A stretch of 64,000 nt of DNA, from assembly GCF_965363235.1 (NCBI RefSeq), contig NC_134843.1, positions 868,001-932,000 of the forward strand. Direction: 5' to 3'. Shown here in pieces: positions 21,785 to 63,403 of the stretch. Position 1 is the stretch's first letter; each line of letters opens with the position of its first letter. Below the pieces are notes generated by a model, which was not told the origin of the DNA, did no database searches, and saw only the letters and a list, made by a program, of their open reading frames with translations. This DNA comes from Mytilus galloprovincialis. Lineage: Eukaryota; Mollusca; Bivalvia; Mytilida; Mytilidae. The position numbers were made by a program, and so were the translations under genes.

Positions 21785-21902
21785 TTACGTCTCAAGAATT
21801 GGAACTACCACCAGGATCAGACTGGCGAACACTTGCATCTGCTTCGTCTCCCGAATTGGAAATACCACCAGGATCAGACTGGCAAACACTTGTATCTGCT
21901 TC
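21785..21902 (-). repeat. 57-bp in-frame tandem duplication in gene C tail
   Basis: Two 57-bp units ('accaccaggatcagactggc' occurs in each) encode two 19-residue copies. The duplication keeps the frame and includes the stop-proximal end of the protein. Confidence 0.8.
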
Positions 21903-22435
21903 GTTGGAATAAGTGGATATTTCATCTGCAGACTTACACAGAGATTCCGGCGAAAGAATTAATTCAGAACTTGCCATTTGTTCATGTTCAGAAGATGTTC
22001 TCATTTCATTATTGCAAACTTCCACCTGATAGGTAGGATTAGAACTCTCCAACATTCCAGAGAATAATTTAGAATTAAAGTTAACATCATAATCATTTCC
22101 GAACTGATCTACAGATATAATAGATGGCACCAAAGATTGGGTATGCGATTCAGGTTGTGAAAGATTATCAAAAAGGTTTTGGTCATGACTTTTCTTTCGT
22201 TTGAACACCAAAATAACAATGTACAGAACAATTATCAGAAGGACAACACAGCCAATGGATATTCCAACAGCCATCTCGACTTTCTCGTTAGACGATGACA
22301 GTTCCTGGTATGTAGCTTGGTCGTCCACAGACTGAGTGGTCGAGTCGTTCACAGACAGAGTCGTGACGTAATTAACAGTTGTTGTGACGTAATCAGACTG
22401 AGTAGAATGCGTCAATCCAGGACTGGTTTGTTCAT
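21792..22435 (-). CDS. gene C stem, TM and cytoplasmic tail exon
   Basis: 644 nt including the stop. It encodes a Thr/Ser-rich stem, a TM (VVLLIIVLYIVILVF) followed by KRKK, and a tail ending in two repeats of the pattern EADxSVxQSDPGGxSNS. Confidence 0.8.
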
Positions 22436-33199: not shown

Positions 33200-36100
33200 G
33201 TAAGTAATAATTAATTAATAAGTTATGTTAGAATAGTTTGTAAACAATGTTAAAGATGACGTTTCGAAAATTCCGTATGCTTACTCTTTTAAAACACATT
33301 TTAAAAATGAGAATATTTAGACAGTCTGACGACAAGTTTGGCAGATTATGCCATTAGTTTCGTGAAAAATACAAAACCTCAAATAAGTTTTCATATAAAT
33401 TTAGAACACTCACATGCAGATCACATTCAAGTACTAACGAAACAATTTAGATAAATGGTCTACATGTATATGAAAAACATCTTTTTCGGCTAACATATAG
33501 GTAAAAAAAAAAACTTTGTGTCAATGTTCGGTAGAAATAAGAGGCAAAACTAACAAACCGATATTTATTTAAACAAGTCCCTAAAGACACGAATCAATAA
33601 AAGTACAAAAACTTTTAAAAACCCTGAGAGAATCCGCATAACTGAAAAAAAGAAGAGAGTGAAATTGGAAAAATGCTATTTTCTATCGTCAAATCTCAAA
33701 GATCTTTGTTTGAACTTTTCACACACTTTTCAACAATCTCTACGCCAAATTTATATGATTTCGTAATTTAGTAGAAAAAGATCTGCTCTTTGGTCGAGTT
33801 GTTGTCTCTTTGACATATTCCCCATTTCCATTCTCAATTCTAAATTAAAAAGTATGACATATGGCTTCGATTTGTGTAATCAGAATCAATTAGTTTTTAA
33901 TGTTGTTTCAAATACATATTGTTTAGTGTTATTTTCCCGTTTGTAAATGTTTTGGGTAAAAGATTGAAATTGACGTTATTAATTCAGTCATCCGAGTTAA
34001 ATTATGCACATTAATTAGTCATGAAAATTGTAGCAAGGTTGAATTTCGTATTACATTAAATTGTATTTTCCAGGAACTACATCAAACACCGTCAGCTTAA
34101 CTGTAGACCAAAAACTTCCGGTTATAGAAGGAGACAACATAAATTTTACTTGTGTAGTAACGGAAACTCCACGATCAGTTCATTTCGAATCATCGTTCTT
34201 GGAGGGAGAAATCGCCAGCTGGAATTTTGAAAATGACAATTGTGTATTTTTTCAATCCCCAAATAGGACGTTGTTCGATGCCTCATGTGACATGTCATCT
34301 TTAACATTTTCTATGACTTTTTTAAGTGCTTCATCTTCGTACCATCAATCTAACATCACATGTGAAGCTTTTTATAGTGGTGATGCTTCAGATTTTTCGG
34401 AAGGCTTTATTACTGTGGAGGTGAATGGTAAGTCAGTACTTTAGAAACTGTTCTTTTGGTCTGATTTATGTTATTATTATGTATTTTAAGATATTGAAAA
34501 CGTTCAATGAACACAAGCGTCATGACTAATATTTCATTCGAATTGTTTTATATTTTGTCATGTAAGGCCTTTTGTAGCTTACTTTACTATATGGGATTTG
34601 TTCATTGTTGAAAGCCGTACGGTTATGTATTTTTCCCGGTGAAATAAACTTATTACATGATCATCACCTGTTTAAACTGCGGTAATGTTATTCATTCATT
34701 TGTCAAAATTAAGTACAAAAATATCAGCAGTAAAAGAATATGACCACCCTTTGCTGGGTTTATATGTAAAATTGTCAAGTTTTTCGGGATTGATTTTGTT
34801 TTGATTAATAGAGAAATAATACCCCCGCTTTTAGTATTTGGTAGGAAGGAATTTGACGAAAAGTACATTTGAAATCTTATTTCACGGTATATAGATATAG
34901 GAAGATGTGGTATGAGTGTTAATGATACATATCTCCATCCATAGCATGTTCTTATAGAGACCAATATCAAAGTTCAGAAATTATTTAATCGTAGTTCACC
35001 TTTATAAATTCAAAGGCTAGAATGCTTTCGAATGCAACCATTTGGTAAACAGGAATTTGATAAGCCATGAATCGGAAACCTCCTCTTAAAGTACTGCAGC
35101 ATGCCATCTAATCTGATAACAAAAAAAGGAAGCTATTATTTGTAGTTCTCCAGAAAAATGCGACAAAATGTTAAACATATCAAAATAAAAAAAAAAATCC
35201 GTATGTTTGCCAATGAAACAAATATTCACCTGATCAATTATCGGAAATAAAAGCAATGTTTAGCTCACCTGGCCCTGACCTGGCCCACAGGGCCAAGTGA
35301 GCTTTTCCCATCACTTTGCGTTCGTCGTCCGTCGTCGTCTGTCGTCCGTCGTCCGTCGTCGTTAACTTTTACAAAAATCTTCTCCTCTGAAACTACTGGG
35401 CCAAATTAAACCAAACTTGGCCACAATCATCAATGGGGTATCTAGTTAAAAAAAATGTGTCCGGTGACCCGGTCAACCAACCTAGATGGCTGCCATGGCT
35501 ATTTAGAGTAAATCTGACATGGGGTAAAATTGTTAATCAGGTCAAGATCTATCTGCCCTGAAATTTTCAGATGAATCGGACAACCCGTTGTTGGGTTGCT
35601 GCCCCTGAATTGGTAATTTTAAGGAAATTTTGCTGTTTTTGGTTATTATCTTGAATATTATTATAGATAGAGATAAACTGTGAACAGCAATAATGTTCAG
35701 CAAAGTAAGATTTACAAATAAGTCAACATGACCAAAATGGTCAAATAACCCCCTAAGGAGTTATTGTCCTTTATAATCAATTTTTAACAATTTTCATAAA
35801 ATTTGTAAATTTTTACTAACATTTTTTTATGCAACAGTACCGTTAGTGGCTGTAGATATGGAAATAAAAGAAAACATAACTCTACAAGAGAATGATGAAG
35901 TCAATATCACGTGTTCAGCTAGAAGTCGTCCTCTACCACATTTTACATGGTTCGTATCTGGACGTCAGATTCACGACAATTACACAATAACAACGTTTGA
36001 TGACACGGGACCATCGGGAACCAGTACGCTCACGTATACAGGGAACAGGACCGATAATGCGGAGCGATTGTATTGTGTTGCAGAGAGTGGTGAACAACAG

Positions 36101-39100
36101 GAAGAATCATCTGAAATCTTTTTATCAATAACATGTAAGATAATATAGATTTTCTATGGTTATCTTAATCGTTTGGTTGTTGCCGTATATCTTATATCTT
36201 ATTTTGTTTAATGTTAGAACTCTTCGAAGGTATCTCCCTAAATAGTGAAAGGGTCAGGGTGTACCATTAAAAGATATCATGTCATACTTGTTAGATAGAA
36301 GAGTTGACAGCAGTAATAGTAAGAGGTGAATCTTGTCAATTGTTCTGAAAATAAGAATCATGTGAACTGTTGGTTGTGATCATGGCAAAATTGTTGGAAA
36401 GGTTAGAAAAACTGTTGGTTTGAACTAAAGCGCGCTTCTGGTGCGATATTTTTTCGCTGTGTTGAAGACTAAATTGGTTTTCTGCTTTTAGAGCGGGTTG
36501 TTGTCTCTTTGACACAGTCCACATTTCCATTCTCAATTTTAATTTAATTTTGCGAACTTTAAGAAGCTTTGAAAACTTAGGTTGGGTTTTTGTCAAACTG
36601 TTTTAAGGATCTTGGCAATTTTTAGCAAAAATATTGTCAAAGTGATGATGTCATATACTGGTGACACATTTTAGAATGAAATGAATATTTTGGACTGGTA
36701 AGAACTAAAAAAAAACTCTTTTTAAAACAAGATGACTATGTATATTTTGCACAAGACAATGTAGAAACTATATGCGTAAAGAAGTGAAGAAACAGGAAGC
36801 CGTTCTAGTAACAGGTGAACTGTATATTCCATCCTTGACCACCCCTCATCCCAAGAAAGAACATTCAGATGACCATTCCGTTATATGACTTATACTGTTG
36901 ATGTCATTTTGTTTAAATTGATTATGTCATGGTCTGGATAGTGAAGACGTCATTTTGTTTGATAGTGTTCATAATAATGAAGTGTTAACTTTTCGTTTGA
37001 ACATAAACCAGTATCTGCTTTAGTAAAGAAAAATTAGATGAAATAAACTTTTATTTTCACATTGTTAGCATTGAGTTTGTCGTCGCTAGAGTTATTGTTC
37101 ATTGACTTTTCTTTTAGATCCCCCGGACATAGATGTTTATCCAAATGGCATCCCAATAGAAGGAACTCAACAATATAATATCTCCTGCTTAATTCTAGAC
37201 AGTAATCCTACAGTCAACAATTTTAGATGGTATATTAATTCAGAACTGGTTTCCGAACAAACCAGTAATATTCTGACTATAGATTATTTAAACAGAACCG
37301 ATACTAACAACTACACATGTAATGCCACCAATGGCATCGGAGATCCGACAACAAATTATGTCTTTCTGGATGTCTTATGTAAGTTCATTATTTAATTCAC
37401 AAACTGCATTTTCATTTCTCTAGTGTTTAAAAAAAGCAATGTCGATTAAGAGAGAACACAAAACTAGTGAAATCCAATGAAGGGTTAATACATAAATCTG
37501 AAAAGAAAAAATAAAGGTACTTATCGAAAAAAAAATGTCACAGAAAATAAGACGCAATAGAAAAACACATTTTTTAGGATGCATACCCGAGTAATTTATT
37601 CGCAGTATTTGTACTAGGGACGAGCAGATGCGTTTTCGAATAATGCTCAGTTCAGACTTCAAGACGGTCCACAGGCTGTATTTTGTCGCCGCCATTATAG
37701 TTTACATTGGTTACTAGCGTCTCGTTGAAAATAAAACGAACGCTTAAACACTGCTAACGTCTAGGCGGATACGGCGTTTAAAATTACGTGATTGTTAACC
37801 ATTGTATAGACACTTGTCGATTGTCGAAGACTATACTATGCTACAAATTTTAATGATTCAACATCTTTTGTTTCATATTACAACCGAATAAAATGAAGAC
37901 ATGATGTAATAGTCTAGCTTCTGCTTTCATCAATCCTTACAGAAAGGCACGAGATGAAGCTTTATATAGTTCTGATTACATATGTTCCAGACCATAGGAG
38001 TATTTGGACCGTACGCATACGGTCCAGCTGATCATAGATGTTTTGGTATCATATGGCTTAAATTTAAAAAAAAAAACAATTACCAAAAACTTGTAGTTTT
38101 AGATCAATATTATTTTTGCATTAGATGGATAAAGTGAATAAGCGTACAATTAAAATTAAATGTGTGTTTAATTCAACAAATGGAAGTTTTTAACGACATT
38201 GACTGGCTATACAGCCCTTGCACGGTCGGCTTGTTTAATTCTATATCTGAATCCTATTTTTGTACTCTCGCTCAAGTTGACACTAACTACCACAAGGAAT
38301 GTTATTTTTTTTTATTTTACATTTACATGTTTGCAGTTCATGCATGTTCCTTTGCATATATGCATTTTTTTTTCTTTTTTTTTTTTTTACGTTCCCAAAT
38401 ATGTTAAAGCAATTGTCCTCCTACGTTTTGTTTACATCCGTTAACTTCAATTTCAATGAGCATACTGGCCTTTAATTAATGTATTACTGACATTCTAATT
38501 ACAGGAGATTAACAGATTAAATTATATAGTTGAGATAAAGTCCAAGTCGCTGGAAAGTTTACATATTTATTTCACATCCATATATTTCAAATATTAAAAC
38601 ATAACTGCCCCACAACATAAACACAAATATAAAATACAAATTCAAAAGACTGATTGACATACGGAAAATGAACCAATCAAATATCTTTTTATTAAATAAT
38701 ATTAATTCGCGTTTTGCCGAAAGCGGGGATTACGGATTAAAAACATGCTTCGTATAAGTTTGTCAAGAATGGCTTTCGGCAGTTATCACTTAGTGTCAAA
38801 TTATCTATATTCTTTATTACAAAACCTTTTATCTTAAAGACGGATATAAATCTTTGATAATTAATCTAAATGAAAGGATTATAGTTAAGTGTAAAATACA
38901 AGTAACTTTTGAATAGCGTAAAATACAATAAACTAATAAATTATTAAAACGCAATAAGGACTCGGAATAATAATAAAAAGCATAGATTAAAGAAATATAC
39001 AAAATCCTAAACGTGAACTTTGAACGAACAATTGTCGGGTCATATTATCATGTTTTCATTTCAATATCAATTGAACTTTTTATATTAATTTGAGATATAA

Positions 39101-42100
39101 GATTTGTTGATCTGTTATTTACATTTTTATTTAATAAACTTGACCAACTTCTTAATATTAGCCAGACCGTACGCGTACGGTCCGACCGTATGCGTACTTT
39201 GAAAATGTACGCATACTGTCCAGACCGTACGCGTACGGTCAAAATACTCATATGGTCTGTAACACATATATTGCATCTCGTATCTTGTATTGAGTAAAGT
39301 ATGTAAATATCATGTATATTTGTCATTTTTAGATAAAGGATCAGTCTTGATGTTCAACACTACAAATACATCTATGACAGAAGGACAAACATATACAGCT
39401 TATGTCGATGTAGAAGGCAAACCTCTACCTAACGTAACATGGACACAAGATAGATCCGACGCCATATTGCTGAAAGAAAATGACGTCAAGAACAGCAGTC
39501 TGAATATGACTTCTATGTGTGAGGACACTGGAAACTATACTGTTTCTGTCGATAATGGTCTAATTCAGCCAGACATACGCCATTTCAGACTAAGTGTCTT
39601 CTGTAAGATAATTACTTTTGAATATATATATATATACACCTTATTTAAATGACTTTAGCTAAACTATAAGTAAACCCGAGGAAACTTTCCCCAAGACGCA
39701 CATGCTCCACTGAATCTCCAATATTGGCCTTATATAAATGGTCTCTTCATTAAGCCATTGGCATACTGAAATCTGAATCATAAGGTTGATTTTCTCAGGG
39801 GTCACCCCTGCTAGTGAACTGGTATTCTGTTATTCCTAAAATTAACTGTCTCAGTAACCAGGTAGAATACATAAGCCATGTATAGCAGTTTAATCAACAT
39901 AAAGAGAAATGCAAATTGTATACAGTAATAAATAAATTTGGTTTATTTACTGTCTTCTGATTGGTAAAAATTATTAGTTTTATTTTCAATGTTGTCAATT
40001 TTGATGGCGACACGCCCACTCTGACGTTGTGTATTCATACGCCAACATGTGTTCTTGTTAAATATAAATAATATAAAATGTTCCTTGAGCCTTATTTTTG
40101 ATAGAAATTTATTTATAATGAATGGCAATAATTTATTTTGATTTTATTGAACCATAAAACTAATTTTTGACTCTTCACATTTTACATAATCCGCTTCGCG
40201 GATTATTCAATGTGAAGAGTCAAAAATTAGTTTTATGGTTCAATAAATTCAAAATAGATAATAGCCATTCATTAAATAGTATATCGTGTCACTAATGCCT
40301 TACGAACATAACAAAGTACCGACAAAGGGTCATAAAGATACTTTTTATTGTTCGCATGTTCAAGAAATAACTTGGTTTTTTTTTGTGTACACTTTATCAA
40401 CTACCATCTACTGACATTCAAATCTCGTTAGAACGAAAAGTTATTTTCAGCATCATTTATATATACTTTTTATGAAACTACTTATGCATCTGACAATTCA
40501 TGAATGGATTTGTATGTTAAAGTTTTTTCTCACTTCCAAATATCGCAGGTTCACCACGCAAAGATCAGAACACAAACAGCCCGGACGAGATATCGATCGA
40601 GGCTGGAGGGATGTTTACATTAGAAACTAAGATAGTAGCTTTTCCTCAACCCAACATCACGTGGTATTTCAGATCCAACAGCTCTCAGACCAATCGGATC
40701 TTAATTTCAGACAACAATGTTCTGATATCTGATATTAGTAATGAGGCAATTCATCTACTGACACTAACCATAGAGAAAACTAATTCTTCACACAGTGGTC
40801 AATACACTCTTATGGTACACAACTCGATAGGACAAGACAATACAAGTTTTACTGTAAATATAATTGGTAAGTGTTAAAATTGGAAGTGAGCCAACAGTAG
40901 TTTACTGCTATTCAATAGTAAGCGAAAACAAATCCGGATAACAAACTAAGACCGAGAAAAACGATAAGAAAAAAACACGGAAGAACAGGAACAATGAACT
41001 GCAACAAAAACAAACGCCAACATATATAGAAACGGACTATTTATCTCATTGGCAATCATACCACATCTTTTTATATTTGATAACAACTGCAATGTTCTGA
41101 CTACGGGACATTTGTGTAAAAAAATGTCGGGTTGAACCTGGTTTTATGGTTTTATGAAATCATTCATTAAAAACGAGAGACGATAGACCTGTACTCTTGC
41201 AAGAGAACACAAACAAATGGTCAGCTTCTATGTCTCCCAATGTACACACATTTAAGAAAGGCATACAATTTCCTTGAGGAAGTATAAGTAAGCAGCCACG
41301 TCCATTCGGAATGGAGATATCTAACACTGAATCTAGTGTAAGGATTATTTGCAATTTCTTTGCAGGTGAAATAACAACTCGTTTGTCTTATAAAAGCATA
41401 ATCCGTATGTCTCCATTTTCTTTAAATTAACCCGCATATATTACAAGAACTTATACTATAAGTTTACGTTTGATTGTAAGCAGCAGAAATATACAATGTT
41501 ATTTAGATCACAACTGTTTTGTCATTTTTGAAGAGAATTTTTTTGAAAAGCATGACTTGCCTCTTTCGTTTTGTAGATATCGTATATGGGTGTGATATAT
41601 TATTTGATTGTTCCATGTTATATGAACTTGTCATCTATGAGGAAAGAACACACTTATTAAACTGAAAAGTGATGAAATTGATAAACATACACTTATCTAA
41701 CTAAATAAAGATACGGTTAGAGTGTTTCTCAATGTCGAAGGCTATGCTGACTTTTAGAATGAGTTCAGTGATGGAAGTACCGTCCATTTGACTTTGGTTG
41801 CTTTTATTGTGATTTCGTGTTATGAAAAGATACCTCATATCCTTTCTTTTCCATTATAAATATTTAAAAAAAAAATCCATACTGGCTTTATCCATATCCG
41901 GGAATGATATTCTGATTCTCTGTTTGAAAAGACAACTTGACATTACTCACTTCCAAGTTATCATATTTTAGTTCCAAATTAACATTTCTCAGTGGACATT
42001 TCTCGCGTTCAAAGTTGCTTGTGCCCATTTCCAACTTGACATGTCTGACTTTCGAAGATATCTTATTTTCAATTTAATTGTAGAAGCTCATTCAGAATCT

Positions 42101-45100
42101 TCCGTGAAGGTAGAAGCTATTGTAGCTGGTGTTCTCGGTGCTGTTGTATTTATTATATTAGCTGCCTGTGTAGTAAACTGCTACAGAAAAAAGCAAAAGA
42201 AAGGTAAATAAATACTTACACATTTTTCATTCTTTGAGTTTGAGCAGTACTAATTCAGTGGTTGTCGTTTGTTTATGTGTTACATATTTGTTTTTCGTTC
42301 ATTTTTTTTTATATAAATAAGGCTGTTAGTTTTCTCGTTTGAATTGTTTTACATTGTCTTATCGGGGCCTTTTATAGCTGACTATGCGGTATGGGCTTTG
42401 CTCATTGTTGAAGGCCGTACGGTGACCTAAAGTTGTTAATGTCTGTGTCATTTTGGTCTCTTCTGGACAGTTGTCTCATTGGCAATCATACCACATCTTC
42501 TTTTTTATATTATTCAGAAAAACAAAAATCTCTCAAAAAGTATCGAATAATTTCAAATAGCGATAGTGTACAGATTCCCCGGTTTACAATGAAAAAAACT
42601 TTTTTAGGGGGAGTGGGATGCTATCTCTCTTTTTTTTTTTTAGGGGGATGGGGATTTTTATCTCTCTTTTTTTAGGGGGATGGGCATGATATAACAACAG
42701 TAAACTTCCATTGTCACGTAATCTTTTACCATGATTTATTAAAATGTTTGCCACCTCTTTCTTCATTTCACCGTCACTCAAGAATTAGAATTAAACTAAT
42801 ATCCGGGAATTTTAATAACCGTATTCCAACTTTCAATTAGAATAATAATAAAAGTGTTCAGCAGAGAGTGAGGTTCATCGAATGTTTTAAACTTGACTAA
42901 TAATTTTGACATTTTAAGCAGCCCAATATGGTTTTCAAATAACTTGAATTAGTAATATTTTTTTTCGTTTCTGACAAATGGTTCATTGGCCTATATGATG
43001 GTTTACTTTTACAACTTTTAAATTTGAATGGAGAGTTGTCTCATAATTGGCACGCATACTTCATTTTCTTATTTTTATCTGCATATACACTAAGACATAT
43101 TTAAAACAAATGTTTTAAGTTTTAACCGTTTTTGTTTTTTTTTTGCAGAAAAACAACGCAAGAGATCATGGAGATCAAGGTATTAACATTAGATTTTTTT
43201 TCAAATTATGGAAGAACGCAATTATTTGAATCAAGTATACATAACCAGGGTAATCTTAATGTGAACTTTGGGGGAAATGCGGAACTGGGTAAATCAACAA
43301 TTTTTTTATTGCTTTGAATTTTCTCACATAAGATGACATTTAAATCTGTATGAAAAAAGTATACTTCAACCAAATAACTGTTTTTCAGTTCAAAGGATAT
43401 AGATGATATTATAAAAGAAAATCGTGAGTATTTACCTTTGATAATCTACTCGACATTAAATGAATATAAGGTGGTCATATATATTTACAATTTGAATAAA
43501 ACAAATAATTCAGTCAATTGTATTCATTTGTGAAGAAACTCGTGGTTCATTTATAAGTGTTTGAAAACAAAAACAAATATTTCAAAATTATGGCTACTGA
43601 CTCCTAAGACTCCCTTAACATTCTGTGGTTAAAACGCCTAATTAATGAATAACTCCCACAAGGTACATTTATGACACTGTCTAATGCAGTCCTTGTGTCT
43701 TTGTTGTAAAAATATTATTAGTTACAACTAATGCGATATATATGGGCTCAGTAAATTCCATCATCCCACTCACATGAAACTTACTGACCCCCATATATAT
43801 CGTATTAGGTCACTAGCACACCGAGTTACGAATTTATCTTACTGATGATATTAACATGTGACATTTAGACCAGTGGCCTATTAAAGTGATCAAGTCTTCA
43901 ATATATAGAACCTACTTCCATTTGTCTTTACAAAAGCAAATGCCAGCAATAACAACCTGTTCAGCTTTAATGTGTTTCTCTATCTTTTTCAATTGTTCAT
44001 TGTCAATTTCTTCATCTGTTGTCTGATCAAAACGTTTCAGATTTCCCCTCAACGCCGTGTTTTTATGCCCCACCTACGATAGTAGAGGTGCATTATGTTT
44101 TCTGGTCTGTGCGTCCGTTCGTCTGTTCGTTCGTCCGTCCGTCCGTCCGTTCGTCCATCCGGACGTTCTTTCATACATCTGTCCCGCTTCAGGTTAAAGT
44201 TTTTGGTCGAGGTAGTTTTTGATGAAGTTGTAGTCCAATCAACCTGAAACTTAGTATACATGTTCCTTATGATATGATCTTTCTAATTTCAATGCCAAAT
44301 TAGAGTTCTGACCTTAATTTCACGGTCCACTGAACATAGAAAATGATAGTGCGAGTGGGGCATCCGTGTACTGGGGACACATTCTTGTTATCTTTATAAA
44401 TATATATGTATAATGGGACTTAACACCACTACTAACCGTGTTTAAAAAAAACACGGCTTCGAACTCCATATGAAATATACACGGTATCTATGAGGTCGCT
44501 TTTAACCAATCATATTGCTTGAAATATATAGGAGGTAAAATAAATTCTATTGGCTTATGGAGTAGACATATACAGGATGGCACAACTTAATATAGATGAG
44601 GTAATTAAAAATTATTAGATCAAGATAAAACAGACAACATCGTGACCAAAATAGGCGAAAAAACAAACAACAATAAAGACAAACATTGCTAAAGAAGGGT
44701 ATGCAGCTCATGGTCACAGGAGACATAAGCCATTGCTATATACTCTCTAATAATTATGCCCCACCTACGGTAGTAGAGAGACATTATGTTTTCTGGTCTG
44801 TGGCTCCGTTCGTTCGTTCGTCCGTCCGTTCGTTCGTTCGTTCGTTCGTTCGTCCGACTTCAGGTTAAAGTTTTTGGTCAAGGTAGTTTTTGATGAAGCT
44901 GAAGTCCAATCAACTTGAAACTTAGTACACTTGTTGCTTATGATATGATCTTTCTAATTTTAAAGCCAAATTAGACTTTTGACCCCAATTTCACGGTCCA
45001 CTGAACATAGAAAATGAAAGTGGGAGTTTCAGGTTAAAGTCTTTGGTCAAGGTAGTTTTTGATGAAGCTGAAGTCCAATCAACTTGAAACTTAGTACACT

Positions 45101-46299
45101 AGTTGCTTACGATATGATCTTTCTAATTTTAAAGCCCAATTACACTTTTGACACCAATTTCACGGTCCACTGAACATAGAAAATGAAAATGGGAGTTTCA
45201 GGTTAAAGTCTTTGGTCAAGGTAGTTTTTGATGAAGCTGCAGTCCAATCAAATTGAAACTTAGTACACTTGTTGCTTATGATATGATCTTTCTAATTTTA
45301 AAGCCCAATTACACTTTTGACCCCAATTTCATGGTCCACAGAACATAGAAAATGAAAGTGGGAGTTTCAGGTTAAAGTTTTTGGTCAAGGTAGTTTTTGA
45401 TGAGGCTGAAGTCCAATCAACTTGAAACTTAGTACACTAGTTGCTTACGATATTATCTTTCTAATTTTAAAGCCCAATTACACTTTTGACCCCAATTTCA
45501 CGGTCCACTGAACATAGAAAATGAAAATGGGAGTTTCAGGTTAAAGTTTTTGGTCAAGGTAGTTTTTGATGAAGCTGAAGTCCAATCAACTTGAAACTTA
45601 GTACACTAGTTGCTTACGATATGATCTTTCTCATTTTAAAGCCCAATTACACTTTTGACACCAATTTCACGGTCCACTGAACATAGAAAATGAAAATGGG
45701 AGTTTCAGGTTAAAGTTTTTGGTCAAGGTAGTTTTTGATGAAGCTGAAGTCCAATCAAATTGAAACTTAGTGCACTTGTTGCTTATGATATGATCTTTCT
45801 AATTTTTAAGCCCAATTACACTTTTTAAGCCCAATTACACTTTTGACCCCAATTTCATGGTCCACAGAACATAGAAAATGAAAGTGGGAGTTTCAGGTTA
45901 AAGTTTTTGGTCATGGTAGTTTTTGATGAAGTTGAAATCCAATCAACTTCAAACTTAGTACACACGTTCCCTATGATATGATCTTTCTAATTTAATTGCA
46001 AAATTATATTTTTCATCCCAATTTCACGGTCCACTGAACATAGAAAATGGTAATGGGAGTGGGGCATCCGTGTACTATGGACACATTCTTGTTTTCATTT
46101 TGAATTACTTAAACAGCTATTGAAGACTTTGGACCAATAGAACCTGCATATACAAGTAATACAATGTATTATAAGAACCAACCCAGCATACAGTCAATTG
46201 AAACAGGTGAAAATACTAATAAAATCTACGCTAAGGTTGTCAAGCAGACGACAAGACAGCAACCGGAAGTAGTGATAGCCGACAGTGATGCTAATACCA
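33145..46299 (+). CDS. gene D: five-Ig-domain transmembrane receptor (ten exons found, 3' end missing)
   Basis: Exons: 33145-33199, 34074-34427, 35838-36134, 37118-37378, 39333-39602, 40549-40866, 42084-42203, 43149-43179, 43389-43423, 46117-46299. All junctions are GT/AG and phases are compatible. They encode 641 residues and a phase-1 end. Residues 1-18 are the signal peptide. Ig-like domains lie at about 19-136, 137-235, 236-322, 323-412 and 413-518, each on one phase 1-1 exon. Domains 1-3 have the B/F Cys pair; domains 4 and 5 lack it. The TM is at about 529-551, followed by a basic CYRKKQKK. The tail has several Tyr motifs (AYTSN, MYYKNQ, IYAKVV); the last resembles an ITIM but lacks the usual hydrophobic residue two before Tyr. 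Probably a cell-surface adhesion or immune receptor. The terminal exon was not identified. Confidence 0.8.
34074..34427 (+). CDS. gene D exon 2, Ig domain 1
   Basis: 354 nt, phase 1-1. V-like domain with INFTCVV, SWNFEN and NITCEAFY, plus two further Cys that may form an extra disulphide. Confidence 0.8.
35265..35828 (+). repeat. bivalve-type 'gctcacctggcc' dispersed repeat
   Basis: Starts with 'tagctcacctggccctgacc', contains a 'cgtccgtcgtc' run at about 35322-35365, and continues to 'ttttactaacattttt' 10 bp before the exon 3 acceptor of gene D. A degenerate head fragment is at about 47948-48060. Confidence 0.65.
35838..36134 (+). CDS. gene D exon 3, Ig domain 2
   Basis: 297 nt, phase 1-1. 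I-set type: VNITCSAR, PHFTWFVSG, RLYCVAESGE. The acceptor directly abuts a dispersed repeat. Confidence 0.85.
37118..37378 (+). CDS. gene D exon 4, Ig domain 3
   Basis: 261 nt, phase 1-1. I-set type: YNISCLI, FRWYINSE, NNYTCNATNGIG. Confidence 0.85.
37979..39272. mobile_element. DNA element with palindromic CGCG TIRs, copy 2 (~1.3 kb)
   Basis: The ends share 'ttccagaccat.ggagtattt' and inverted 'aaaatactcatatggtctgt', as in copy 1. The right end has repeated palindromes GACCGTACGCGTACGGTC. No transposase ORF is recognised. Inserted in gene D intron 4. Confidence 0.65.
39333..39602 (+). CDS. gene D exon 5, Ig-like domain 4 without the Cys pair
   Basis: 270 nt, phase 1-1. The Ig fold is suggested by VEGKPLPNVTWTQD and EDTGNYTVSVDN, but the B-strand and F-strand Cys positions are Tyr and Val. 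Confidence 0.75.
40117..40273. mobile_element. near-perfect foldback (palindromic) element, ~157 bp
   Basis: Arms of about 75 bp meet at a short loop (CCGC TTCG CGG near 40197). The arms share 'gaccataaaac'-type sequence, for example 'ttgactcttcacatt' inverted as 'aatgtgaagagtcaa'. Intronic in gene D. Confidence 0.75.
40549..40866 (+). CDS. gene D exon 6, Ig-like domain 5 without the Cys pair
   Basis: 318 nt, phase 1-1. FPQPNITWYF and SHSGQYTLMVHNSIG are I-set hallmarks; both canonical Cys are replaced. Confidence 0.75.
41030..41160. repeat. fragments of two dispersed families
   Basis: 'tctcattggcaatcatacca' (family of 7205) is followed by 'gggttgaacctggttttatg' (family of 18625). Intronic in gene D. 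Confidence 0.45.
42084..42203 (+). CDS. gene D exon 7, transmembrane segment
   Basis: 120 nt, phase 1-1. A hydrophobic helix (IVAGVLGAVVFIILAACVV) is followed by NCYRKKQKK, fixing type I topology. Confidence 0.75.
42240..42510 (-). repeat. 'ggtatgattgcc' dispersed family, inverted long copy
   Basis: Reads 'agtggttgtcgtttgtttat', 'gggccttttatagctgacta' and 'attggcaatcataccac', the reverse complement of 7205-7500. Intronic in gene D. Confidence 0.65.
43149..43179 (+). CDS. gene D exon 8 (31 nt)
   Basis: Small cytoplasmic exon, phase 1 in and 2 out, between TTTTTGCAG and GTATTA. It encodes a basic segment (EKQRKRSWRS). Confidence 0.5.
43389..43423 (+). CDS. gene D exon 9 (35 nt)
   Basis: Small cytoplasmic exon, phase 2 in and 1 out, between TTTTTCAG and GTGAGT. 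It encodes SSKDIDDIIKEN and restores the phase needed by the next exon. Confidence 0.5.
43728..43808. repeat. short inverted repeat, 27-bp arms
   Basis: 'gcgatatatatgggctcagt' is inverted as 'actgacccccatatatatcg' with a 26-bp spacer. Confidence 0.55.
44058..44400 (+). repeat. 'gccccacctacgatagtaga' repeat, single-unit copy
   Basis: The head is followed by a 'cgtccgttcgtc' simple-sequence run (44107-44165), one body unit ('aggttaaagtttttggtc') and the 'gggacacattcttgtt' end. Confidence 0.7.
44756..46095 (+). repeat. 'gccccacctacggtagtaga' repeat with seven tandem body units
   Basis: Same head and end as the 44058 copy, but the body unit is present about seven times (starts near 44862, 45028, 45198, 45366, 45537, 45707 and 45893), each about 170 bp. 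A 'cgtt' run is at 44806-44855. Confidence 0.75.
46117..46299 (+). CDS. gene D exon 10, tyrosine-rich tail
   Basis: 183 nt, phase 1-1, between TTAAACAG and GTAAGT. It encodes the Tyr-containing tail (EPAYTSNTMYYKNQ, NKIYAKVVKQ). The acceptor lies about 25 bp after the end of a repeat array. Confidence 0.65.
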
Positions 46300-50249: not shown

Positions 50250-50349
50250 NNNNNNNNNNNNNNNNNNNNNNNNNNNNNNNNNNNNNNNNNNNNNNNNNNN
50301 NNNNNNNNNNNNNNNNNNNNNNNNNNNNNNNNNNNNNNNNNNNNNNNNN
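50250..50349. other. assembly gap (100 N)
   Basis: Exactly 100 N, the size conventionally used for gaps of unknown length. It lies where the left arm of a poly-G/C foldback would be expected. Confidence 0.95.
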
Positions 50350-53732: not shown

Positions 53733-53810
53733 TCAGTATCTGTTGTCAGTCAGGTTAACTTTCTCTTCTGCCTCGGTCTCATCTGGTTTGTCAAATTCTC
53801 CCTCTTTCTC
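53733..53810 (-). CDS. gene E terminal exon, acidic tail
   Basis: 78 nt, phase 0, from TAATTGCAG to TGA. It encodes 25 residues rich in Glu/Asp, ending NLTDNRY. Confidence 0.7.
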   Translation of the reverse strand, partial: EKEGEFDKPDETEAEEKVNLTDNRY

Positions 53811-56800
53811 CTGCAATTATAACATAGTACTTACAGGACAATGACACATTTCAATAGGCTGATGAATTAAATCTTAAATTCTGATATACTGTATAGAAGG
53901 TTATTTTCGAGGTTGTAAAATTCGCGATTTTCATTGAATAAGGTATACGAAATATTTTTGCAGTTATTATTCTTGCGGTTTCAAAACTTTTATCAATACC
54001 TTTGCATGTGCCGTTTTAAATTGGCGGAAATTCATTGTGGCAATTTTGTTCTATCCGCAAAAATAAGCGAATATCTGCACCCCGCGAAAATAACCCGCTA
54101 TACGGTATATGTGTCTGTTACTGAATGTGGAATTGTGCTACAGAAAGACATAAGTGTGTTTTTTCTCGGTCACAACATCTTTAAAATCTGCTATTCAATA
54201 CTTGTTTATGGTATTTACACGAAATTACCTGGAAGTCCCACAGATTAATAACAAAATAATTTAAATATTAAACATATAATTTGGAAAAAAAATATAAGTC
54301 TTGAAAACCCGAAAGTTCTAACATTTTTATATCCATGGTAAAACAACTTACCGGTTGGATTTTGAGTAGATTCCTGTATTTGTAGTTCAGGACGAGTACA
54401 CCAATGCAGGTCAGCACAATGATGACCAACAAAATCAGAGAGATCACGAAAGTCACTGTAAAAACACAATGTCATTTGTAATAATAAAATAACACGATGA
54501 GGATCAACACAATCAGAGAGATCACGAAAGTTACAGTAAAAAGTCATTAATAGTTATTACAAGGTCAAGCTTTCAAATGAAATGTCGAATTACCAGTACT
54601 ATATTTAACAAAGTAACATACCAAGTTTGTTGAATTACTGGTAATATATTATGGTAACATACAAACTTGGTTAAATTACCGGTACTACATCCAACATAGT
54701 AACCGTGCCAAGTTTTTTTTTCTAAATTACCGGTACTAAATTTAAGAAAGTAACATACCTAGTCTGTTGATTTACCGGTACTATATTTAACATGGTAACG
54801 TACATAAATTGTTATTTACCGGTACTATATTTAAAATGGTAACATACCTAGTTTGTTAAATTACCGGTACTATATTTAACATGGTGACATACCACGTTAG
54901 TTGAATTACCGGCAATCTGTTTAACATGGTAACATACAAAGTTTGAATTACCGCTTCTATATATAACATGGTTACATACCAAGTTTGAAAAACCGGTACT
55001 ATATTTAACATTATACTAACTTACCAACTTTGTTGTATTACCGGTATTATATTTAGCATGGTAACATAACTAGTTTGTTGAATTAACGGTACGATATTTA
55101 ACATGGTAACATATTAAATTTGTTGGCATACCGGTAATATATTTAACATGGTTATAGACATAGTTCATACCTAGATTATTGAACTACCGGTACTATAAAA
55201 AACATGGTAAAATACCAAATTTGTTGAATAGCCAGTATTATATTCAACATTGGCAACTTTATTTAACATGGTAACTTAAATACCTAGTTTGTTGAAATAC
55301 CGGTACTTTATTTAACATGATTACATACCTAGTGCATCTCCTTCTTCTGGAACGACACTTATTATGACTGTTGTCTCTAAAAATAAAAATTACCAAATTG
55401 TTTAAAAGAAATATGTTATTAAAAGATCACATTTGTTTTATTGTTGTTTTATTGTTGTTTTGTTTTGTTGTGTTGCATAGTTTTTTTTTTTTTTTTTGTG
55501 TACATTTCTTTGATTGGTGGATCAGAGGTACTTGTATTTTGGTGTTTATTAAATTCATTCTCTGTGAGGTATGCCTACCATTGCCTTGTATTTACAAGCA
55601 AACTACCTCCTATAGTCTTACTAGTTTCTGTCGTTGGTATTGGTGCTGTTGCTGTAACAGTACCTCCTATAGTCTTACTTTCTGTTGTTGGTATTAGTGT
55701 TGTTGTTGTACCACTACCTCTTATTGTCTTACCTTCTGTTGTTTGTATAAGTATAGTTATTGTTACAGTACCTCCTATTGTCTAACCTCCTATTCTGGGT
55801 ATTGGTGTTGTTGTTGCACCACTACCTCTTATTGTCTAACCTTCTGTTGTAAGTATTGATGTTGGTGTTATTATAGTGCCTCGTATTGTCTTACCTTCTG
55901 TTGTTGGTATCAGTGTTGTTGTTGTAACAGTACCTCCTATTGTCTAACCTTCTGTTGTTGGTATTGGTGTTGTTGTAATAGTACCTCCTATTGTCTTACC
56001 TTCTATTCTTGGTATTGGTGTTGTTGTAATATTACCTCTTATTGTCTTACCACCTGTTGTTGGTATTGGTGTTGATGTTATTATAGTACCTCATATTGTC
56101 TTACCTTCTGTTGTTGGTATCAGTGTTGTTGTTCTAACAGTACCTCTGATTGTCTTACCTTCTGTTGTTGGTATCAGTGTTGTTGTTGTAACAGTACCTC
56201 CTTTTGTCTTACCACCTGTTGTTGGTATTGGTGTTGTTATTGTAACAGTACCTCTGATTGTCTTACCTTCTGTTGTAGGTATTGGTGTTGTTATTTTAAC
56301 AGTACCTCTGATTGTCTTACCACCTGTTGTTGGTATTGGTGTTGTTATTGTAACAGTACCTCTGATTGTCTTACCACCTGTTGTTGGTATTGGTGGTGTT
56401 ATTGTAATAGTACCTCTGATTGTCTTACCTTTGGTGTTGTTATTGTAACAGTACCTCTGATTGTCTTACCACCTGTTGTTGGTATTGGTGTTGTTATTTT
56501 AACAGTATCTCTGATTGTCTTACCACCTGTTGTTGGTATTGGTGTTGTTGTTTTAACAGTACCTCTGCTTGTCTTACCACCTGTTGTTGGTATTGGTGTT
56601 GTTGTAACAGTACCTCTGATTGTCTAACCACCTGTTGTAGGTATTGGTGTTGTTATTGTAACAGTACCTCTAATTGTCTTACCACCTGTTGTTGGTATTG
56701 GTGTTGTTATTGTAACAGTACCTCTGATTGTCTTACCTTCTATTGTTGGTATTGGTGTTGTTATCGTAACAGTACCTCTGAGTGTCTTACCACCTGTTGT

Positions 56801-59800
56801 AGGTATTGGTGTTGTTATTTTAACAGTACCTCTGATCGTCTAACCACCTGTTGTTGGTATTGGTGTTGTTGTAACAGTACCTCTGAGTGTCTTACCACCT
56901 GTTGTTGGTATTAGTGGTGTTATTGTAACAGTACCTTTGATCGTCTAACCACCTGTTGTTGGATTGGTGTTATTTTAACAGTACCTCTGATTGTCTTACC
57001 ACCTGTTGTTGGTATTTGTGTTGATATTGTAGCAGTACCTCTGATTGTCTTACCTTTGGTGTTGTTATTGTAACAGTACCTCCTATTGTCTTACCACCTG
57101 TTGTTGGTATTAGTAGTGTTATTGTAACAGTACCTCTGATTGTCTTACCACCTGTTGTTGGTATTGGTGTTGTTATTTTAACAGTACATCTGATTGTCTT
57201 ACCACCTGTCGTTGGTATTGGTGTTGTTATTGTAACAGTACCTCTGAGTGTCTTACCACCTGTTGTTGGTATTAGTGGTGTTATTGTAACAGTACCTCTG
57301 ATTGTCTTACCACCTGTTGTTGGTATTGGTGTTGTTGTAACAGTACCTCTGATTGTCTTACCACCTGTTGTAGGTATTGGTGTTGTTATTGTAACAGTAC
57401 CTCTGATTGTCTTACCACCTGTTGTTGGTATTGGTGTTGTTATTTTAACAGTACCTCTGATTGTCTTACCACCTTTTGTTGGTATTGGTGTTGTTATTGT
57501 TACAGTACCTCTGATTGTCATACCACCTGTTGTTGGTATTGGTGTTGTTATTTTAACAGTACCTCTGATTGTCTTACCTTCTGTTGTAGGTATTGGTGTT
57601 GATGTTTTAACAGTACCTCTGATTGTCTAACCACCTGTTGTAGGTATTGGTGTTGTTATTGTAACAGTACCTCTGATTGTGTTACCACCTGTTGTTGGTA
57701 TTGGTGTTGTTATTGTTACAGTACCTCTGAGTGTCTTACCACCTGTTGTAGGTATTGGTGTTGTTATTTTATCAGTACATCTGATCGTCTAACCACCTGT
57801 TGTTGGTATTGGTGTTATTGTAACAGTACCTCCTTTTGTCTTACCACCTGTTGTTGGTATTGGTGTTGTTGTTTCAACAGTACCTCTGATTGTCTTACCA
57901 CCTGTTGTAGGTATTGGTGTTGATATTGTAACAGTACCTTTGATTGTCTTACTACCTGTTGTTGGTATTGGTGTTGTTGTTTTAACAGTACCTCTGATTG
58001 TCTTACCTTCTGTTGTTGGTATTGGTGTTGTTATTTTAACAGTACCTCTGATTGTCTTACCACCTGTTGTTGGTATTGGTGTTGTTGTTTTAACAGTACC
58101 TCTGATTATCTTATCACCTGTTGTTGGTATTGGTGTTGTTGTTTTAACAGTACCTCTGATTGTCTTACCACCTGATGTTGGTATTGGTGTTGTTATTTTA
58201 ACAGTACATCTGATGGTCTTACTACCTGTTGTTGGTATTGGTGTTTTTATTGTTACAGTACCTCTGATTGTCTAACCACCTGTTGTTGGTATTGGTGTTG
58301 TTGTTTTAACAGTAACTCTGATCGTCTAACCACCTGTTGTTGGTATTTTTTTGTTTTAACAGTAACTCTGATTGTCTTACCTACTGTTGTTGGTATTGGT
58401 GTTGTTGTTTTAACAGTAACTCTGATCGTCTAACCACCTGTTGTTGGTATTGATGTTGATATTGTAACAGTACCTCTGATTGTCTTACCACCTGTTGTTG
58501 GTATTGGTGTTATTTTAACAGTACCTCTGATTGTCTTACCTTCTGTTGTTGGTATTGGTGTTGTTGTTTTAACAGTACCTCTGATTGTCTTACCTTCTGT
58601 TGTTGGTATTGGTGTTGTTATTGTTACAGTACCTCTGATCGTCTAACCACCTGTTGTTGGTATTGGTGTTATTTTAACAGTACCTCTGATTGTCTTACCT
58701 TCTGTTGTGGGTATTGGTGTTGATGTTTTAACAGTACCTCTGATTGTCTAACCACCTGTTGTAGGTATTGGTGTTGTTATTGTGACAGTACCTCTGATTG
58801 TCTTACCACCTGTTGTTGGTATTGGTGTTGTTATTGTTACAGTACCTCTGAGTGTCTTACCACCTGTTGTAGGTATTGGTGTTGTTATGTTAACAGTACC
58901 TCTGATCGTCTAACCACCTGTTGTTGGTATTGGTGTTATTGTAACAGTACCTCCTTTTGTCTTACCACCTGTTGTTGGTATTGGTGTTGTTGTTTTAACA
59001 GTACCTCTGATTGTCTTACCACCTGTTGTAGGTATTGGTGTTGATATTGTAACAGTACCTCTGATTGTCTTACCACCTGTTGTTGGTATTGGTGTTGTTG
59101 TTTAACAGTACCTCTGATTGTCTTACCTTCTGTTGTTGGTATTGGTGTTGTTATGTTAACAGTACCTCTGATTGTCTTACCACCTGTTGTTGGTATTGGT
59201 GTTGTTGTTTTAACAGTACCTCTGATTGTCTTACCACCTGTTGTTGGTATTGGTGTTGTTGTTTTAACAGTACCTCTGATTGTCTTACCACCTGTTGTTG
59301 GTATTGGTGTTGTTATTTTAACAGTACATCTGATTGTCTTACTACCTGTTGTTGGTATTGGTGTTGTTATTGTTACAGTACCTCTGATTGTCTAACCACC
59401 TGTTGTTGGTATTGGTGTTGTTGTTTTAACAGTAACTCTGATCGTCTAATCCCTGTTGTTGGTATTGGTGTTTTTTTGTTTTAACAGTAACTCTGATTGT
59501 CTTACCACCTGTTGTTGGTATTGGTGTTGTTGTTTTAACAGTAACTCTGATTGTCTTACCACCTGTTGTTGGTATTGGTGTTGTTATTGTAACAGTACCT
59601 CTGATTGTCTAACCACCTGTTGTTGGTATTGGTGTTGTTATTGTAATAGTACCTCTGATTGTTTAACCACCTGTTGTTGGTATTGGTGTTGTTATTGTAA
59701 CAGTAACTCGATTGTCTTACCACCTGTTGTTGGTATTGGAGTTGTTGTTTTAACAGTAACTCTGATTGTCTTACCACCTGTTGTTGGTATTGGTGTTGTT

Positions 59801-62800
59801 ATTGTAACAGTACCTCTGATTATCTTACCACCTGTTGTTGGTATTGGTGTTGTTGTTGTAACAGTAACTCTGATTGTCTTACCACCTGTTGTTGGTATTG
59901 GTGTTGTTATTTTAACAGTAACTCTGATTGTCTTACCACCTGTTGTTGGTATTAGTGTTGTTATTGTAACAGTACCTCTGATTATCTTACCACCTGTTGT
60001 TGGTATTGGTGTTGTTGTTGTAACAGTACCTCTGATTGTCTTACCACCTGTTGTTGGTATTGGTGTTGTTATTTTAACAGTAACTCTGATTGTCTTACCA
60101 CCTGTTGTTGGTATTAGTGTTGTTATTGTAACAGTACCTCTGATTATCTTACCACCTGTTGTTGGTATTGGTGTTGTTGTTGTAACAGTACCTCTGATTG
60201 TCTAACTACCTGTTGTTGGTATTGGTGTTGCTATTTTAACAGTACATCTGATTGTCTTACCACCTGTTGTTGGTATTGGTGGTGTTATTGTAACAGTACC
60301 TCTGATTGTCTTACCACCTGTTGTTGGTATTGGTGTTGTTGTAACAGTACCTCTGATTGTCTTACCACCTGTTGTTGGTATCAGTGTTGTTGTTCTAACA
60401 GTACCTCTGATTGTCTTACCACCTGTTGTTGGTATTGGTGTTGTTATTGTAACAGTACCTCTGATTGTCTAACCACCTGTTGTTGGTATTGGAGTTGTTG
60501 TTTTAACAGTAACTCTGATTGTCTTACCACCTGTTGTTGGTATTGGTGTTGTTATTGTAACAGTACCTCTGATTGTCTTACCACCTGTTGTTGGTATTGG
60601 TGTTGTTGTTGTAACAGTACCTCTGATTGTGTTACCACCTGTTGTTGGTATTGGTGTTGTTATTTTAACAGTAACTCTGATTGTCTTACCACCTGTTGTT
60701 GGTATTGATGTTGATATTGTAACAGTACATCTGATTGTCTTACCACCTGTTGTTGGTGTTGGTGTTGTTGTAACAGTACCTCATATTTTCTTAACTTCGG
60801 CTGTGGGTTTTATTACCGGTGTTGTTGTTGTTGTACCACAACCTATTATTGTGTTACCTTCTGCTCTGGGTATTGGTGTTGTTGCTGTACCACTACTTAC
60901 TATTGTCTTACCTTCTGCTCTGGGTATTGGTGTTGTTGTACCACTACCTACTATTGTCTTACCTTCTGATCTGGGTATTGGTGTTGTTATTGTACCACTA
61001 CCTATTTTTGTCTTACCTTCTGTTGTTGGTATCGATGTTGTGCTTGTAGTGGTTGTTGTTGTCGTTGTTGGAGGAAGTGTTGTTGTCGTTGTTGTCGTAG
61101 TAGTTGTTGTAGAAGTTGTAGTCACTGTTGAAAAAACTTGCTTGAACAATTAAATTTTCACATATATTTATGATTAAAAAAAACCCACACTTTTATTTAC
61201 CTGTTATCACATTATGTCAAAAAGGTACCACGGTAACACCTGTTAAGTCTTTGATTTGCATTTTGAATGATAAACCTTCAATTTTTCTTCGACCAGATGA
61301 AACTAGTATTGTGCCCTATAAATAGGATACGCCATGCATACATCTAATGACGCCTATTGAAAGCAAAACATACGAAGCGTATTATGTTATATAGATATAA
61401 GAAAACGTGGTATGATAACCAATGGAACATCTCTCAATCCAAATAGTATAGTATTACCATTAAAGGTCAAAGAATGACATTACACACGAACCCTTGGATA
61501 CGTCTTTTTATTTGTCCTTAGCATGTACGAAAAAATACATGATGGCCTTGCCCTTTTTATTATTTTCCGTCCTCCGCAAAATCCCCTTCAATTTACCCGT
61601 TTTGTGAGGTATGCACTAATTTATTGATCATGATTATTATATTTCTTCAATAACTATTAGTTTTGATCGTATTGATCGTTTTAAAATCGTTATTTGATTT
61701 GTTTTGCTAGTTTAATAGGTATTTTTTTTAATAGTAAAGTAAGAATATTATTTTTAATAATGTTTAGAATGAGAAAATATGTTTTAAAAAGTGTAAGCTG
61801 ACAATAAATAGTAACCCCTTACCAATACAGACATCGAACGAAGCCCCAGGTATATCGACTACGTTCTCTCCAGTCTCACACTCAGCATCAACAGTGATGG
61901 ATTGATCTAGAGATAATAGCCAAGTTCGGAACTTCTCTACTGGGCAACCACAGTCTAATGGATTTCCTTCAACATATCTGACATAGAAATGACTATGTTT
62001 ATAAATGTTAATCAAATACTAGTAACGGAACAACAGTCACATGGATTCATTTATAGAGACTTCTGAGTTAAAAATGACAAAGAAAATTATTAAACATTAT
62101 AAATTCTAATCAAGTAAAGTAGTAACAGTCAAATGGCTCTAATCAATATTTCTGAGTAAAAAGGAAAAACAAACAAACAAAAGGTGCCTCCCCGAACCTA
62201 AGGTTTATGCTCTTATAATATACAAGATTATGGATGAGTTTCTCGCTGCATTGAAGACCCATTTGTGGCCTTCGGCGTTTGTCTGCTCTATGGTCGGGTT
62301 GTTGTCTCTTTGACGCACTTCCCATTTCCATTTTCAATTTCAAAAACATCATTTAAAAAAATGTAACCTCAACTAAAGACAACCACAATAAAGTAGATTC
62401 TATTCTTCAATATATCCCAGCTAATATTTCTTTGAATTCAGCAAATATTGCTTTTTTAATAACCTAACCCTAATGCAACTGAGTGTGTTCACAGTAATGA
62501 TAACTTGCATTATGATATCTGATACATATATCTCTGTATTCATCCTTTTTGATATCGCAATAATCAATCTTTAACTTAAGTTGATAATTTTTGAAATAGC
62601 AAAAATACATGCCCGCAGTCATTATTTTTTTATGTCTATTTTGTAGGACAAAACAATACAGTTTCCTATAATAAATATCTGTATATGTAATACATTGGTT
62701 TATTTCAATGACAAACACATTAACAAAATTCTATTATTACGAAAAATAAAAAGTTTTTAAAAATTTATGATGCCAATAAATAGGTTAATTATAATAATTT

Positions 62801-63403
62801 TCCAGACGGTAAAGTAGCTTATTTTCCCAATGTAGCACCTGTATACTGTATGTGAATTAAAATTGATAAACTAAAATACACGAAAAAGTTAAAACCGATG
62901 AGAATGTGACTACTTACAACCAATTCAATTTTGGCATGTTACTAAACAGTCCATCTGGTATTTCTGTAAGGAGGTTGTAGTTGAAGTTTCTGTTAAAACA
63001 AATATTTTTAATATCATTATAAATCTGAGAACGAACAAAACAATAGAGATAACTTATTTCACTCTAGCCTAAACCAAAGTTTATGAACAGTAATACCTCA
63101 GTATGTCGCGCTCAAACTAAGTTTATGTACAGAGTAATTGGAGGTCTATATTACATACTTACACTGACAGAACCAGCGCAGGCGAGACAAAAAATCCTTT
63201 ATAACTTTTTTACTATAAAGTCGTCAATTCTTCGAAAACTTGCATTTATTATTTTGAAATCTATATTTTTCTAATTTATAATTTTTAATGCAATAAAAAT
63301 ACTCCAAATGATATAAGTTTAGCTAACTTACACCTCTACTAGGTTAACTGCGTTGTCAAATAGTCCCTCTGGTAGCACAGCTATTTTGTTATTGTTTATA
63401 TGC
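53733..63403 (-). CDS. gene E: LRR transmembrane receptor, 3' part (seven exons)
   Basis: Exons in transcript order: 63403-63332, 62989-62918, 61977-61823, 61124-61017, 55376-55329, 54455-54352, 53810-53733. All phases agree (2,2,1,1,1,0), giving 211 complete residues to TGA at 53733. Order: two LRR units, an LRR C-terminal cap (GNPLDCGCPVEKFRTWL then two further Cys), a Thr-rich stalk, a short linker (ETTVIISVVPEEGDAL), a TM (FVISLILLVIIVLTCIGVLVL) and an acidic 30-residue tail. The missing N-terminus (signal peptide, LRRNT, more LRRs) lies beyond 64000. The architecture resembles LRR cell-surface receptors with a mucin-like stalk. Two introns are filled with arrays derived from the exon/intron junctions. 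Confidence 0.75.
54352..54455 (-). CDS. gene E transmembrane exon
   Basis: 104 nt, phase 1-0, between TTTTTACAG and CCG|GTAAGT. TM helix followed by NYKYRNLLKIQP. A decayed duplicate lies upstream at 54480-54545. Confidence 0.75.
54480..54545 (-). pseudogene. decayed duplicate of the gene E TM exon
   Basis: Repeats the first ~30 nt of the TM exon ('cagagagatcacgaaagt' in both) and stays hydrophobic (FVISLIVLILIVLF), but the acceptor AG is lost and a stop follows. Confidence 0.6.
54583..55338 (-). repeat. 45-bp tandem array, ~16 units, in the intron after the linker exon
   Basis: Consensus (plus) 'attaccggtactatattt' plus 'aacatggtaacatacctagtttgttg', with indels. The last unit runs into the linker exon: its 'acatacctag' is the donor GTATGT and the last four exon bases. 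Confidence 0.8.
55329..55376 (-). CDS. gene E linker exon (48 nt)
   Basis: 48 nt, phase 1-1, between TTTATTTTTAG and CTAG|GTATGT. It encodes 15 residues including SVVPEEGDAL, just before the TM exon. Its donor is the seed of the 45-bp array. Confidence 0.6.
55605..61040 (-). repeat. 54-bp tandem array, ~100 units, in the intron after the Thr-rich exon
   Basis: The unit on the minus strand encodes TTGGKTIRGTVTITTPIP (18 residues); most units contain GTAAGA at the position of the exon donor. Some units are 51 or 48 bp. A minority have GTTAGA, which removes the donor and creates an in-frame TAG. The array begins within the Thr-rich exon. Confidence 0.85.
61017..61124 (-). CDS. gene E Thr-rich stalk exon
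   Basis: 108 nt, phase 1-1, from acceptor TTTTTTCAACAG to donor GAAG|GTAAGA. It encodes almost only Thr with a few Ser/Pro, a mucin-like O-glycosylation stalk coded by ACN triplets. In-phase alternative donors follow at 60957-60962 and 60906-60911. Confidence 0.6.
61125..61822. other. intron of gene E, no other feature
   Basis: Contains only a short piece of the 'ggtatgattgcc' family (about 61385-61465: 'aacgtggtatgataaccaat'). No ORF of interest. Confidence 0.45.
61823..61977 (-). CDS. gene E LRR C-terminal cap exon
   Basis: 155 nt, phase 2-1. LRRCT: EGNPLDCGCPVEKFRTWL, then AECETGENV and FDVCIG, providing the four conserved Cys. Confidence 0.85.
62165..62345 (+). repeat. 'ttgttgtctctttgac' dispersed family copy
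   Basis: Contains 'tttctcgctgcattgaagac', 'gggttgttgtctctttgacg' and 'cccatttccattttcaattt'. Intronic in gene E. Confidence 0.6.
62918..62989 (-). CDS. gene E LRR exon (72 nt)
   Basis: One 24-residue LRR unit (NYNLLTEIPDGLFSNMPKL), phase 2-2, between TTTTAACAG and GTAAGT. Confidence 0.85.
63332..63403 (-). CDS. gene E LRR exon (72 nt)
   Basis: One 24-residue LRR unit (NNNKIAVLPEGLFDNAVNL), phase 2-2, between TTTTTTACAG and GTAAGT. One-LRR-per-exon, 72-nt architecture. Confidence 0.85.

Follow-up and report, generated by a model that had tools for sequence, protein, structure and literature searches.

A 54-bp intronic minisatellite apparently seeded from a 5′ splice junction in a predicted LRR receptor gene of Mytilus galloprovincialis

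The window analyzed here, a 64,000-nucleotide stretch of the Mytilus galloprovincialis genome (contig NC_134843.1, positions 868,001 to 932,000), carries on its minus strand a minisatellite of 102 units of ~54 bp (55600..61048), whose repeat unit straddles the end of an exon and the start of an intron in a predicted LRR receptor gene. The array is probably a junction-seeded intronic minisatellite, in which a 54-bp stretch lying across the stalk exon's 5′ splice junction would have been duplicated in tandem and then expanded, chiefly in the middle, to 5.4 kb. The spliceosome would most likely join the first donor (61016) to the acceptor at 54456 that precedes the transmembrane exon, and might sometimes use the donors of units 2-4 instead. 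The remaining ~98 units, which are donor-like, acceptor-less and non-coding, would be drifting neutrally as decoys. We infer that selection maintains little or no function in the array, and that most of its look-alike splice sites are probably non-coding by-products; judging from the reading frame, its first few units could lengthen the receptor stalk.

The host gene is predicted to comprise eight coding exons on the minus strand, joined in an 873-nt frame of 290 residues plus a stop; this model is built from sequence only and was traced past the window edge at 64000. The first coding exon (67537-67326) and the next LRR exon (64153-64082) lie beyond the window and are followed within it by two LRR exons of 72 nt each (63332..63403 and 62918..62989), recognized by exon prediction, the joined frame and Pfam. 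Downstream is an exon with a C-terminal Cys-rich LRR cap (61823..61977), read by eye as LRRCT-like from its motif; LRRCT is absent from the Pfam matches. The joined frame then passes through a Thr-rich stalk exon of 108 nt, which runs from phase 1 to phase 1 (61017..61124), a transmembrane exon that runs from phase 1 to phase 0 (54352..54455), its membrane span judged by eye, and a last coding exon that supplies a 25-residue acidic tail and the TGA (53733..53810). The predicted internal exon edges are all AG/GT, with end phases of 2, 2, 2, 2, 1, 1 and 0. The domain order is accordingly an LRR part, Cys-rich cap, Thr-rich stalk, hydrophobic segment and acidic tail.

In Pfam, the predicted protein matches LRR_8 at 1e-18, while LRRNT (16.4 bits against a cut-off of 25.8) and a weak match to TMEM154 (2.9e-4) both fall under their cut-offs. 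Compared with the PDB, the protein is most similar in sequence to LRRTM, other LRR proteins and lamprey variable lymphocyte receptors (VLRs). LRRs are shared by many families, and 296 distinct PDB sequences are matched. LRRTM and the VLRs, whose chains are both among these best matches, resemble the host gene in their LRR domain, and VLRs carry a Thr-rich stalk. The host gene differs from VLRs in consisting of predicted germline exons that include a transmembrane segment. These features suggest a small LRR membrane receptor. A search of the 289 kb around the gene (contig positions 768001-1057000, E 0.01) finds a partial paralogue, with its first exon at window-scale position 86761 and one LRR at 79267, and within those 289 kb there is no second copy of the cap, transmembrane or tail exon. 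A stalk query over the same interval yields only short Thr-rich stretches at window-scale positions 182267/182276 and -85649 (best E 6.7e-4) and no unamplified sister junction.

Tandem Repeats Finder places 101.5 copies of a period-54 repeat, with 87% matches, at 55628-61048, in good agreement with the ~100 units originally predicted at 55605..61040. When the minus strand is cut at the position of GTAAGA, 102 units result, the last of them partial. Leaving that last unit aside, 80 of 101 are exactly 54 bp long and 94 have a length that is a multiple of 3 bp, the seven exceptions measuring 41, 41, 50, 50, 53, 53 and 55 bp. Each unit consists of ~32 bp resembling the exon end and ~22 bp resembling the donor and the start of the intron. 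GTAAGA is intact in 76 of the 102 units and GT in 99; the commonest 9-mers at the unit donors are GTG/GTAAGA (52/102) and AAG/GTAAGA (18/102), and weakened GTTAGA forms are also present. No run of N falls within the array, the sole one in the window being at 50250-50349. The stalk and transmembrane exons are separated by a 6.56-kb intron, 5.4 kb of which is taken up by the array; the best reading is that the array is intronic except for its first ~32 bp, which constitute the exon end.

The case for a splice junction as the seed is made at the two edges of the array. The stalk exon's final 30 nt agree with a unit at 26 of 30 positions, a score that no control reaches: the maximum is 22/30 among the 354 remaining 30-mers of the 384 nt preceding the donor, 21/30 among 7,710 30-mers drawn from the window's first 54 kb, and 20/30 in 2,000 shuffles. 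At the distal edge, the intron-like part of the last copy is preserved at 20 of 22 nt, against no more than 15 in controls, and beyond it the sequence departs from the repeat. The ~32 nt of exon and ~22 nt of intron found at the array edges add up to one 54-nt unit, which places the junction inside the unit and thus points to it as the seed. In the predicted gene, phases and edge homology concur that the array starts at the exon end and continues into the intron, since phase 1, in which the 61016 donor closes the stalk exon, is also the phase in which the transmembrane exon opens at 54455. The original prediction, that the unit spans the end of the Thr-rich exon and the start of its intron with a first donor at 61016, is therefore upheld by both edges and by the phases: the first GT of the array sits at 61016, and the unit register coincides with the junction there.

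The donor of unit 1 (AAG/GTAAGA; 61011..61016, minus strand) is most likely the main 5′ splice site. Its exact 9-mer is common to 18 units, unit 1 included, and so the 61016 donor is not distinguished by strength. On the basis of frame and donor score, units 2-4 provide putative in-frame alternatives (GT at 60962, 60911 and 60857; 60852..60962, minus strand), which would add 18, 35 and 53 residues to the stalk, respectively. Units 1-3 have identical strong donors, whereas that of unit 4 is GTAACA and scores 6.0 bits against 10.1. Unit 5 has no GT, and the donors of units 6, 7 and 8 are downstream of a TGA that ends the protein at residue 309; among units 1-8, which were tried individually, only the donors of units 1-4 thus keep the reading frame. 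Donors beyond unit 8 would include the same TGA (60783), so that their message would also stop there.

Conceivably, several of these units are really used, with units 1-4 yielding graded membrane stalk lengths and units from 6 onward a soluble receptor or a decay target, in which case copy number would tune the forms. The identical strong donors of units 1-3, the open frames of units 2-4 and the common stop reached from all later donors would suit such a switch, as would human IFI6, in which two repeat units lying downstream are stated to act as splice donors (PMC4526556). Against it, the donors of units 4 and 5 are damaged, and the donor motif does not clearly stand out in conservation from the remainder of the unit: GTAAGA ranks 8th among 54 six-base windows and the donor 9-mer 41st of 54, which gives no clear sign of selection keeping the donors, although a weak constraint on GTAAGA at that rank is possible. 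We therefore consider such a switch unlikely.

Outside the first few units, the array is rich in one kind of splice site and devoid of the other. A donor score of at least 8 bits is reached in 71 of 102 units, and such donors occur at 13.0 per kb in the array versus 0.70 per kb on the same strand elsewhere in the window, as judged by a generic matrix that is untrained on the host species and scores four of the gene's own seven predicted donors below 8 bits. Acceptor-like sites are absent from the minus strand of the 5.45-kb array, compared with 126 on that strand in the 55.6 kb below it; the plus strand of the array has 11. With many donor-like and no acceptor-like sites, the units can compete as donors but could hardly form internal exons. 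A more elaborate scheme can be imagined as a splice rheostat, in which dozens of tandem donors compete for one acceptor, the first four setting the stalk in steps of 17-18 residues and the rest diverting transcripts to a tail-less soluble or degraded form or binding U1 over the length of the intron. Copy number would then set the amount of membrane receptor in an individual, but we regard this scheme as distinctly improbable.

A different possibility is that the array was, or in some alleles still is, a single exon for a long Thr/Pro-rich, mucin-like stalk, which has decayed in the sequence at hand. The unit length of 18 codons and the preponderance of lengths divisible by three would fit such an exon, and the consensus unit is open in one frame (KTIRGTVTITTPIPTTGG). 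In the sequence itself, the open frame reads CCA ATA CCA ACA ACA GAA G/GT AAG. The codons ACC AAT ACC AAC ACA, in which the unit was originally read, belong to a different frame, in which GGTAAGA supplies a TAA stop, and that part of the prediction has to be abandoned. Read on from the stalk exon into the array, the frame is open through units 1-4 (18, 17, 18 and 21 codons) and meets its first in-frame TGA in unit 5 (60781..60783, minus strand). Taken one by one, 23 of 101 units contain a stop in their own frame; in 19 of them the third base of the donor has changed from A to T, which creates a TAG. Frame shifts affect 7 of 101 units.

Nor does the pattern of substitution resemble that of a coding repeat. 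In the 80 units of 54 bp, synonymous differences from the consensus number 78, non-synonymous ones 191 and stops 20, and pN/pS in the open frame is 1.14 if every occurrence is counted and 1.02 if each distinct change is counted once. The two other frames give 1.38 (0.98 distinct) and 0.51 (0.70 distinct); because one of them has the lower ratio, conservation is not greatest in the open frame, and variability is highest at second codon positions. The earlier view that the units code for 18 residues thus holds for units 1-4 and fails for the array as a whole. With its stops, its frame shifts and a pN/pS near 1, the whole array is rejected as a coding stalk, and even the decayed-exon version is very improbable. 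Long plus-strand ORFs also run through the array and are presumably by-products of the repeat.

Finally, the notion that an unrelated or mobile satellite landed at the junction, its likeness to the exon reflecting only shared A/C-rich low complexity, is scarcely credible: the Thr-rich exon and the array are indeed both ACA/CAA-rich, and the window has further minisatellites, but the likeness falls exactly at the junction with a score above all controls, and the array has no match elsewhere in the genome. In the 1.38-Gb assembly, a 30-bp junction pattern allowing up to three mismatches has at least 82 matches, 82 of 82 within the array, and a longer exact pattern at least 17, again all within it; none of the matches listed is a copy elsewhere. 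On these matches, a dispersed mobile element or genome-wide satellite is rejected.

The internal variation of the array may indicate how it grew. The mean edit distance to the consensus is 12.6 in units 1-5 and 9.3 in units 92-101, compared with 3.1 and 3.7 in the center, an edge-to-center contrast that is exaggerated by a consensus drawn from central units. Blocks of as many as six units reappear 21 units and 3 units away, though mean identity over these distances does not exceed that over others. Minisatellites grow by unequal exchange or slippage, and the pattern is compatible with growth by either process in the middle of the array.

The closest known counterpart appears to be human. In 1995, Turri, Cuin and Porter reportedly described a minisatellite in IFI6 (G1P3, 6-16) that provides multiple splice donor sites. 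The IFI6 repeat has a unit of 12 bp and lies where an exon ends. In both cases, minisatellite units present a good 5′ splice site in the sense of the gene (here the GTAAGA of 76 of 102 units). The mussel array differs in its 54-bp unit, its 102 copies, its location in an LRR receptor and the in-frame stop from unit 5, and its multiple donors are candidates only. The amplification of a donor had been called unusual, a description that needs qualifying, given that the human minisatellite was already reported with several donors. We file the array as a large new case of an IFI6-type donor minisatellite, in which the extra donors are putative.

Other comparisons are looser. Like VNTRs in general, such as those of hTERT and HRAS1 and the repeats of mucins, the array is a minisatellite grown in tandem within a gene; those repeats are not known to stem from a splice junction. 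In the potato RdRp gene, an in-gene tandem duplication is reported to have altered splicing and led to intron gain (PMC4974935), but there one duplication made a new intron, whereas the mussel array has ~100 copies without an acceptor-like site. For the array itself, a literature search with most subscription journals outside its coverage found no title or abstract opening. Should the gene model prove correct, ~100 similar, graded 5′ splice sites stand before one acceptor in a natural gene, which would thus lend itself to testing how the spliceosome selects between competing donors. It would also suggest that a minisatellite can arise from the edge of an exon and lengthen the intron, with a few proximal copies staying usable as in-frame stalk extensions.

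The same intron contains two further elements on the minus strand. One is a second, unrelated tandem array with a 45-bp unit (54583..55250), detected by Tandem Repeats Finder and sequence comparison; kinship with the 54-bp array is rejected, as the two share only a 17-bp match (E 0.55). The other, also identified by sequence comparison, is an 88% duplicate of the acceptor and start of the transmembrane exon (54493..54542), in which the acceptor AG has been lost (ACTG). Neither a tRNA nor an Rfam family reaching its gathering score occurs in the window. AATAAA poly(A) signals occur twice in the array and five times in the remaining intron. When folded in 300-nt pieces, array RNA ranges from -45 to -53 kcal/mol (n=3) and controls from -33 to -43 kcal/mol (n=3), so that the array RNA is, if anything, somewhat more structured than the controls.

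Within the intron that separates the Thr-rich stalk exon from the transmembrane exon of the receptor gene, a minus-strand segment at 54493-54542, positioned 78 bp upstream of the transmembrane exon, duplicates the acceptor and start of that exon with 88% identity over 50 bp. Because the acceptor of the copy reads ACTG rather than ACAG, and its frame, as read by hand, would end in YYYK-stop, this segment looks from its sequence like a dead alternative transmembrane exon. The same intron contains a second tandem array, a diverged 45-bp repeat at 54583-55250 that is unrelated in sequence to the 102-unit, 54-bp minisatellite of this intron. The 45-bp array also carries donor-like GTATGT motifs, which are weaker for the most part; the final 1.1 kb of this intron holds 20 donor-like sites scoring at least 3.77 bits, two of which reach at least 8 bits.

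Beyond the window, a partial paralogue of the receptor is located at 86761-86555 and 79267-79211 (window numbering extended past 64,000). Its first exon shares 70% identity with the receptor over 69 amino acids, and it further comprises one LRR; neither a Cys-rich, LRRCT-like cap exon nor a membrane exon of the paralogue was found in the 289 kb searched around the receptor gene.

Elsewhere in the window, a minus-strand open stretch at 21795-22457 would encode a stalk rich in Ser/Thr, a membrane-like segment and a long tail; a 19-residue repeat, corresponding to a 57-bp array, forms the end of this tail. The stretch probably belongs to another membrane protein gene. On the plus strand, several open stretches at 34061-39652 are putatively immunoglobulin-like, as judged by eye from the ORF list. 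A further tandem array, with a 169-bp unit, occupies 44859-46060 (seven copies, 90% matches).
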